Assembly: GCA_017433765.1 (NCBI GenBank)
Contig: JAFRGO010000001.1
Coordinates: 1 to 63,881, forward strand
Origin: Candidatus Saccharimonadota bacterium
GTDB taxonomy: Bacteria > Patescibacteriota > Saccharimonadia > Saccharimonadales > Saccharimonadaceae
Reading direction: 5' to 3'
DNA length: 63,881 nt
The position numbers were made by a program, and so were the translations under genes. Positions 7,381 through 9,221 of this stretch are shown piece after piece. The first letter of the stretch is position 1. Every line of letters begins with the position of its first letter. The notes beneath the pieces were generated by a model, which was not told the DNA's origin, did no database searches, and worked only from the letters and a program-made list of their open reading frames with translations.

Positions 7381-7456
7381 GGGGGCGTAGCTCAGGGGTT
7401 AGAGCAGGCGGCTCATAACCGCTTGGTCGTTGGTTCGAACCCAACCGCCCCCACCA
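7381..7456 (+). tRNA. tRNA with CAU anticodon, probably tRNA-Ile2
   Basis: A complete cloverleaf: acceptor GGGGGCG/CGCCCCC, D arm, anticodon stem GGCGG/CCGCU around CUCAUAA, T arm GUUGG/CCAAC, encoded CCA. The anticodon-arm text (AGAGCAGGCG...CGCUUGGUCG) is close to bacterial tRNA-Ile2, where C34 is modified to lysidine by TilS. The other two CAU tRNAs of the window look like initiator and elongator Met, which supports the Ile2 reading. Its last 18 bases are repeated at 7609-7626. Confidence 0.85.
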
Positions 7457-7523: not shown

Positions 7524-7608
7524 ATTTTCAAGGAGACGAGAGAAAATCTAGAGCTTGCTCTAGATTTTCCGAGACGACGCCGAAAATGTCAAGGAGGCGA
7601 AGCCTCCG
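7524..7608. repeat. Hairpin element copy 1, between tRNA end and its duplicate
   Basis: A nested inverted repeat. The inner part is a 12-bp stem GAAAATCTAGAG/CTCTAGATTTTC with a CTTG loop (7542-7569). Outside it are ATTTTC/GAAAAT, then GACGACG and a small hairpin GGAGGC-GAA-GCCTCC. The same order of motifs (GGAG, A-run, CTTGCT, T-run, CCGACGACG or GAGACGACG, AGGCGAAGCCT) recurs at 36563-36645 beside tRNA-Ser. No open frame of note. Confidence 0.6.
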
Positions 7609-7626
7609 ACCCAACCGCCCCCACCA
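7609..7626 (+). repeat. Direct repeat of the tRNA(CAU) 3' end
   Basis: ACCCAACCGCCCCCACCA is identical to tRNA positions 7439-7456, including CCA, 170 bases downstream. This is the arrangement expected of an attachment-site or insertion footprint at a tRNA 3' end. Confidence 0.8.
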
Positions 7627-7781: not shown

Positions 7782-8141
7782 GCCAAAGACTCCATCTGTC
7801 CCCGTGGCTGGCAACTACCGACCTACGACACTACCGACCCCAAATCCTACTACAACCTCATCATTCGTGTCTATGGAGGCAATAACCGCCCATACGCTAA
7901 CCGTCTAGACGGCACTCTCGCCGACTCCATCCTTCTCTCTCAGCCTCTTTCCTTCCTCCGTTCTGGCTACTACCATTGGCAGACGGCTTCCCGTAACTAT
8001 CGCGGGTCAGACGGCCGCTATTGGGAGTCTCGCATCGCCTCTGTAACGCTCGCTAACTACCTGTACTTCTACTCATCCAGCTTGAACCCCCAGTACGGCA
8101 ACTTTCGTGGCTACGGCTTCTCGGTGCGCTGTGTGTCTCGG
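7782..8141 (+). pseudogene. Start-less C-type-lectin/FISUMP-like cassette, copy 1
   Basis: The frame reads AKDSICPRGWQLPT through WQTASRN to GYGFSVRCVSR. This is the C-terminal domain text I associate with Fib_succ_major (FISUMP)-type C-type-lectin-like domains found at the ends of Saccharibacteria surface and pilin proteins. There is no start codon. An in-frame TAG sits at 7752-7754 and no signal or TM segment precedes, so this is a truncated or silent cassette. After CVSR the frame runs on without the stop present in copy 2. Its first 98 bases (7782-7879) are identical to 8834-8931. Confidence 0.7.
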
Positions 8142-8221
8142 CAGCCCTCAAGCGTCATAATAATCACACTTCGTTTTATGTTATTGCTCCTTCGGGTAAC
8201 GTCACGTTTCTTCCCGTATGG

Positions 8222-8227
8222 TATAAT
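8222..8227 (+). promoter_or_regulatory. -10 box of the CdiA-CT-like gene 1
   Basis: TATAAT ends 6 bases before the ATG, so transcription is expected to start at or next to the ATG (leaderless). I see no ribosome site. Confidence 0.65.
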
Positions 8228-8233
8228 CAACTT

Positions 8234-8638
8234 ATGTCCAGCAAAACCAAAAGAGACTACAACGTAATCGTCCCGCGCTCTTATGTCCCAAAGCCATCTC
8301 TAGTAGAAATGTCTGCCGCCGATATTCTAGTAGATTTTTTCGAAGCCGATGTGAAACTTATTAAACGCGGCAGTGGCAAAACCCCAGATTTTTTGATAAA
8401 AGGAATCTATTGGGAACTAAAAAGCCCTACTGGCTCCGGTAAGCACAATATTCAGCACAAAATCCAAGACGCCGCCGAGCAATCTCGTAACATTATCATA
8501 GATGGCAGGGAATCAAAACTACATCCCCTCAAGTTAAAACACGAAGTCCAACACCAATTTGACATCATCAAGAAAGCAAAACGTCTAATTCTTATCGACA
8601 AATCCGGGAAAGCGGTTGAAATTTTTAGAAATAAGTAG
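8234..8638 (+). CDS. CdiA C-terminal-like PD-(D/E)XK nuclease, copy 1
   Basis: A 134-residue soluble basic protein. The core TPDFLIKGIYWELKSP gives the Asp...Glu-X-Lys layout of a PD-(D/E)XK nuclease, followed by GSGKHNIQHKIQDAAEQS and a NIIIDGR strand. This text matches what I know of the CdiA-CT tRNA-nuclease family, which often occurs in CPR as short stand-alone proteins. There is no secretion signal and no recognisable immunity protein beside it. The gene is more AT-rich, with fewer C-ending codons than neighbours, suggesting transfer. A small-RNA promoter is embedded in its last codons. Catalytic activity is inferred only. Confidence 0.7.
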   Translation: MSSKTKRDYNVIVPRSYVPKPSLVEMSAADILVDFFEADVKLIKRGSGKTPDFLIKGIYWELKSPTGSGKHNIQHKIQDAAEQSRNIIIDGRESKLHPLKLKHEVQHQFDIIKKAKRLILIDKSGKAVEIFRNK

Positions 8639-8644
8639 TAAAAT
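8616..8644 (+). promoter_or_regulatory. Promoter of small RNA A, inside the nuclease gene end
   Basis: TTGAAA, a 17-base spacer, TAAAAT. The -35 box lies in the last codons of the nuclease gene and the -10 directly follows its stop. Predicted start about 8651, at the base of the first hairpin. Confidence 0.6.
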
Positions 8645-8650
8645 ATAGAT

Positions 8651-8753
8651 AACGAAAGCTCGCCAGGCAGCGTTGCAACGCAGGTTCGGAGCTTTCATTT
8701 ATCGAAGTTCTTGCACGGGGCGTAATGCTCCTACCGCAGGAGCTTCTTTTTTT
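8651..8753 (+). ncRNA. Putative small RNA A, two hairpins and terminator
   Basis: Two stem-loops in about 100 bases. The first (8654-8696) is closed by GAAAGCTC/GAGCTTTC and contains the self-complementary GCGTTGCAACGC. The second (8704-8746) is closed by GAAGTTCTTGC/GCAGGAGCTTC, with an inner stem GGGGC/GCTCC and loop GTAAT, followed by T7. The second hairpin matches 56683-56725 in length (43 bases), closing stem and position relative to a CdiA-CT-like gene. It could be a regulator or RNA antitoxin of the nuclease, or merely a terminator region. A dedicated promoter argues for a separate RNA. Confidence 0.55.
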
Positions 8754-8800
8754 GCCCTCGCCGCCACTTCTTTTTTCCGTTTTTCTCCTCCACCGCCGGC

Positions 8801-9187
8801 AGTGATTATGGCCTTACGACCAACGGGAATGTGGCCAAAGACTCCATCTGTCCCCGTGGCTGGCAACTACCGACCTACGACACTACCGACCCCAAATCCT
8901 ACTACAACCTCATCATTCGTGTCTATGGAGGTACATATCGTGCTAACATCAGCGGTTCCTTAGCCGACTCCATCCTCCTTTCCCAACCTCTTTCTTTCCT
9001 CCGTTCTGGCAACTACTATTGGCAGACGGCTTCCCGTAACGATCGCGGGTCAAACGGCTTCTATTGGGAGTCTCGTATCCTCTCTGTATCGAACGCTAAC
9101 AGCCTGAACTTCTACTCATCCTATTTGAACCCCCAGAGCAGCAACACTCGTGGCTACGGATTCTCGGTGCGTTGTGTGTCCAGGTAG
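8801..9187 (+). pseudogene. Start-less C-type-lectin/FISUMP-like cassette, copy 2
   Basis: An in-frame stretch SDYGLTTNGNVAKDSICPRGWQLPT to GYGFSVRCVSR and a TAG stop. It extends further upstream than copy 1 but still has no ATG, RBS, signal or TM segment. GTG at 8831 is the only nearby start and has no ribosome site. Against copy 1, about 14 codons in the second half differ in sense. Nearly all are NNC/NNT codons changed at positions 1 and 2, as expected if both derive from AAC/AAT template codons. Best read as a silent or displaced variable region. Confidence 0.7.
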
Positions 9188-9221
9188 TCCTTCGATGCCT
9201 AAGTTCTATCCCTCGCCACCC

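Follow-up and report, generated by a model that had tools for sequence, protein, structure and literature searches.

Diversity-generating retroelements (DGRs) are mutators that overwrite their own product, and silent-cassette systems are, to our knowledge, archives without a dedicated source of new variants. Silent-cassette gene conversion is known from the donor sites of Borrelia vls, Neisseria pilS, and Treponema tprK. The arrangement described below resembles these systems in that a single surface-protein region is represented by many partial copies, start-less, in frame, and mosaic with one another, and a long gene lies elsewhere; it differs from them in that the cassette variation bears a signature of retroelement mutagenesis and in that exchange with the expressed gene is not shown here. 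Among retroelements, the closest are DGRs with C-terminal variable regions (BPP-1 type and the cellular DGRs of CPR/Patescibacteria; PMC8144416), with which there are two points of likeness: (i) adenine-specific changes of AAY codons in a C-terminal domain and (ii) in relatives of the bacterium studied here, a reverse transcriptase (RT) bearing an SQ motif, together with a template and a target gene whose product is membrane-anchored. However, the variable regions of those DGRs lie inside the target coding sequence, whereas the copies considered here are mostly start-less, intergenic, numerous, and without a 3' homing tail. DGRs with several or remote targets have also been described (PMC8144416, PMC10907252). 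That of Thiohalocapsa PB-PSB1 has several variable regions per RT and template, some of them in trans, together with target duplication and recombination, but the additional targets there are described as target genes (PMC10907252), while the extra copies here have no start. Both halves, the DGR and the silent-cassette archive, are already known kinds; their combination was not found described in the literature searched. That search (DGRs with silent cassettes, gene conversion, or Saccharibacteria; subscription papers and preprints were outside its scope) returned no start-less, DGR-derived cassette library.

The window, that is, the whole stretch of 63,881 nucleotides that was analyzed, comes from a gut Saccharibacterium and contains two such copies (Table 1). 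The original prediction had described a pair of start-less cassettes sharing 98 identical bases, and these bases do form an exact repeat. Both cassettes are real, but the homologous part of the second begins ~50 nt earlier than had been proposed, near 8783 (TAGSDYG...).

Table 1. Features of the cassette locus, in coordinates of the window
Feature	Position	Strand	Remark
tRNA-Met gene, ahead of the cassettes	7381-7456		
Cassette 1, C-terminal portion of a FISUMP-like domain, start-less (AKDSICPRGW...GFSVRCVSR)	7782..8141	+	stop codon absent from the homologous position
Constant block, cassette 1	7782..7879	+	98/98 identical to 8834-8931
Variable core, cassette 1	7953..8114	+	14 sense-changing codons, 13 in genus-template AAY columns
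Complete ORF with a CdiA_C domain (PF18451, 58 bits), between the cassettes	8234..8638	+	profile match
Pyrimidine-rich tract immediately 5' of cassette 2	8745..8782	+	similar to the 5' junctions that start-less copies have in relatives; resemblance only, no statistics
Cassette 2, longer start-less FISUMP-like fragment (TAGSDYGLTTNGNVAKDSICPRGW...GFSVRCVSR*)	8783..9187	+	stop codon retained
Constant block, cassette 2	8834..8931	+	98/98 identical to 7782-7879
Variable core, cassette 2	8996..9157	+	counterpart of 7953-8114

Both cassettes are 5'-truncated open frames, and both lack usable starts, as the original prediction had it: a search for in-frame ATG, GTG, or TTG found none in cassette 1 from the preceding stop (7752) as far as 8082 and only an internal GTG, at 8831, in cassette 2. 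Downstream of the constant block, the loop at 7880-7919 carries in-frame indels between the cassettes, and the gapless part that follows (7920-8148 against 8963-9191, 229 nt) is 85% identical; both copies end in GFSVRCV. Their boundaries differ from each other and from those of the short cassettes of relatives. As for the neighboring features, a repeat of the tRNA-Met gene's 3' end (acccaaccgcccccacca, 7437-7456) lies ~170 bp downstream at 7608-7626, the pair resembling the two ends of a small tRNA-integrated element. The ORF between the cassettes, for which no solved relative was found by sequence, carries a domain that we take to be a contact-dependent inhibition toxin-like C-terminal domain.

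The cassette domain is FISUMP/Fib_succ_major-like, with profile scores under the curated cut-offs (TIGR02145, 25-29 bits against 41.65; PF09603, 23-25 bits against 33.9), which is to be expected since the domains are truncated. Judged by these profile scores, the window cassettes are FISUMP-like fragments rather than members of the family. AlphaFold models of the cassette and of a full domain had mean pLDDT values of 51 and 48, a low confidence that was too poor for a fold search, and no solved structural relative was found by sequence; the C-type lectin fold therefore remains unconfirmed.

The mutation pattern between the two copies was as the original prediction had described it. The C-terminal half contains 14 codons whose sense differs. 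Thirteen of these end in C or T, and the third codon position is altered in a single one of the 14 (AGC/TAT at 8079); ACG/TCG at 8046, the only codon with another ending, is still compatible with a change at A. Thirteen of the 14 fall within the 20 of 63 codon columns in which at least 40% of 11 DGR templates from the genus read AAY (Fisher p=9e-8), which rules out a chance similarity to these columns. When the templates were taken one by one, p lay between 2e-5 and 6e-9. No synonymous difference lies inside the AAY columns, while five are found directly 5' of the variable core and four base differences directly 3' of it; these flanking differences, the loop indels, and the ORF with the CdiA_C domain go beyond the original prediction. 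Compared across the two cassettes, the non-hot bases of the core differ at 2/125 positions, the aligned flanking bases at 9/60 (p=8e-4), and the hot bases at 21/37, with third codon positions alone giving 2/54 in the core against 8/20 in the flanks (p=3e-4); the hot positions in this block test were taken from templates of relatives, none from the window species. From these figures we infer that the flanks diverged first and that rewriting or exchange of the core came later, since homogenized constant positions combined with scrambled A positions are the pattern left by rewriting from a common template or by exchange with a product of such rewriting. The 98-nt identical block adjoining a block diverged by 15% (p=8e-4) is a second sign of block-wise exchange. 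The restriction of variation to template-A positions that marks a DGR is therefore seen at this locus, albeit indirectly, through relatives' templates and the block test, and the proposed DGR-type mutagenesis has strong but indirect support.

The assembly to which the window belongs (G000; 327 kb) is only 49.6% complete. The original prediction had noted no RT or template in the window, and none was found in this whole half-complete assembly either: no RT, further cassette copy, template repeat, or full-length gene matching the cassettes was detected. With half of the genome missing, this absence cannot serve as the refutation that the original prediction had named. As both copies are 5'-truncated and start-less and no RT or template was found, we do not file the locus as a DGR; a DGR should have its variable region toward the 3' end of a gene that is expressed, and neither copy is so placed.

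Genuine DGRs are present in the same genus, which we compared across 174 metagenome-assembled genomes, one per species and without strain comparison. FISUMP matches occur in 165 of these genomes and an RT (RVT_1) match in 97, often adjoining a FISUMP gene. Eleven template/variable-region pairs were recovered, with mismatches nearly all at template A (e.g., 19/19, 20/20, and 20/20), and IGNL[ST]SQ and YVDD motifs were present in seven of the eight RTs read. The RT, template, and A-specific variable region that together define a DGR are all found in the relatives G023 (RGIG2268, goat duodenum), G101 (RGIG5850, sheep jejunum), and G003; the relatives with DGRs are ruminant-gut Ca. Saccharibacteria where named. 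The RTs of G023 and G003 carry IGNLSSQ/YVDD, and that of G101, on its contig C8, is a homologue 74% identical to the RT of G023. A second RT of G101, on contig C9 (L063:3951-4586), was rejected as a DGR RT for want of the SQ motif; it has YMDD and is perhaps retron-like. The RT and template lie on separate contigs in G023 and G101, whereas in most of the genus members examined target, template, and RT follow one another compactly.

Six relative species each hold about 25-126 dispersed copies of the variable domain, mostly start-less. We obtained 31 matches to one cassette in G023 (29 copies aligned) and 45 in G101 (40 aligned), and in both species the aligned copies are intergenic and share a fixed 5' boundary. 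The units of G023 are ~207 nt long, running from a fixed point (CC|CGCGAC) to a 3' end near GCGGTG, often head to tail in the gaps between ordinary genes, while the copies of G101 mostly begin at ACC|AGAGCC and are scattered over both strands. In G003, G009, G068, and G074 there were 29, 45, 29, and 126 matches, with open frames mostly <200 aa. Across the cassette families examined, the third position is C or T in 84-99% of cases in hypervariable columns (78% in one diverged G074 family), compared with 42-68% in conserved columns. The matches of G074 (loci L129-L140) form at least two or three cassette families, and no DGR RT was detectable in this 97% complete assembly; the library of G074 may have outlived its mutator. 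In relatives, the 5' ends of long start-less copies often coincide with, or immediately follow, extended pyrimidine-rich tracts (L126 end, L127 start, L061 near 15042, and L108 near 1040), a possible clue to how copies are inserted. An interpretation of the cassettes as ordinary small genes was rejected, as in-frame upstream starts were roughly as common as chance would give (15/25 and 13/37 cases against 46% expected). A scan of viral contigs with the G023 cassette start gave no match, nor did one of genome contigs with P0002, whose exact peptides were too specific.

Long target ORFs of at least 935 and at least 971 codons, with a hydrophobic N-terminal stretch, occur in G023 and G101. They enter the repeat at contig ends, from which it appears that the assemblies break at the repeat. 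When each species' copies were compared against its own single template, those that share the template's 3' tail mostly had no non-A mismatch in the variable region and for this reason appear to be the ones rewritten by the DGR. Some of them are start-less (G101 C2:53206 and C5:750; in G023, C8 and C16 by contig ends). Sixty-two copies of the two species were classed as being without the 3' tail of the target gene; they showed many A-site differences and departed from the template at as many as 52 non-A sites. C5:750 was counted among them, although it does bear a tail like that of the template and matches it at every non-A site. Pairs of cassettes in both species are mosaic, sharing segments beyond what permutation gives, e.g., 8/8 mutated A sites identical inside one segment and 5/25 outside it.

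Could the window pair simply be dead debris, functionless duplicates of a DGR target that have lost their 5' ends and are decaying in place? This is the strongest of the alternatives, though we think it unlikely. It agrees with the missing starts, with the lack of a matching full-length gene in the half-recovered assembly, with the drift of the window flanks, and with the drift of relatives' cassettes at non-A sites. Decay is harder to reconcile with both window frames having stayed open despite indels and synonymous drift. It is likewise hard to reconcile with the 62 cassettes of G023 and G101, whose aligned units contain no stop codon at all, where simulation from the distinct non-A substitutions led us to expect ~6 and ~8 in the two species (~14 in total), whose internal length changes, where clear, come in multiples of three, and whose synonymous changes exceed the simulated expectation. 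Moreover, at least six species of bacteria with reduced genomes each hold a large library.

A less probable alternative, to which we give little weight, is that the cassettes are displaced yet live DGR targets, rewritten in trans and with no role as donors. The homogenized constant positions of the window cores would fit, as would the stop codon of cassette 2 and the start-less, tail-bearing copies of G101, which equal their template at every non-A site; yet the 3' part of cassette 1 is lost, the window shows no shared tail, the base differences directly 3' of the core oppose a recent 3'-anchored retrohoming of both copies, and most copies in relatives are tail-less and drifted. Finally, ordinary lectin paralogues under diversifying selection without any retroelement, for which only the missing RT and template in the half-complete assembly speak, can hardly be entertained, given NNY-only changes that coincide with template AAY columns and divergence in a block pattern.

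We therefore consider it probable that the window pair are silent copies of the retroelement-diversified C-terminal part of a FISUMP surface protein, kept for recombination into a full-length gene. The original prediction had left open silent donors or displaced variable regions, which agrees with the start-less variable-region libraries, long targets, and DGR RTs of the relatives; the donor role remains inference only. In the mechanism we propose, a DGR would write A-specific variation into variable regions that carry the 3' homing tail, start-less copies included, its RT and template in the window species lying outside the recovered half of the genome. Shorter, tail-less copies would escape rewriting and persist as dispersed, in-frame, start-less cassettes, and recombination would probably carry segments of them into the full-length gene, in the manner of vls- or pilS-type systems. 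Selection on frames that have no start would imply that cassettes are at times expressed after such recombination, which is likewise inferred.

What is shown directly is the signature in the window and, in relatives, the DGRs, long targets, cassette libraries, segmental mosaics, and frame maintenance. Several start-less, homologous, in-frame cassettes, as a silent-cassette system should have, are present (two in the window and the 62 stop-free ones of G023 and G101), and so is segmental mosaicism (the G023 and G101 pairs and the block pattern in the window). Membership of the window pair in such a library is inferred, as is the read-back of cassettes into an expressed gene, which has not been shown, and the mechanism that makes and moves cassettes, whose cutting, copying, and insertion at a fixed 5' boundary have no known basis. 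Several points count against our preferred reading: the window genome, half of which is missing, has yielded only two cassettes, with dissimilar boundaries, and none of the other components; intact frames could also be explained by recent copying from expressed genes; exchange between cassette and expressed gene was not directly observed, with one genome per species; and the largest library, in G074, has no detectable DGR RT.

Whether a two-tier system operates, in which a retroelement randomly varies copies of a surface lectin, start-less ones among them, tail-less variants are shed as silent cassettes and kept in frame by selection, and recombination returns them to the full-length gene, is in our judgment evenly balanced. 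If such a cassette library is real, it would be a natural record of past DGR products, an archive set atop a mutator in bacteria with reduced genomes. A lineage joining the two would, if confirmed, account for the way in which an episymbiont could generate variants of its surface and also retain them.
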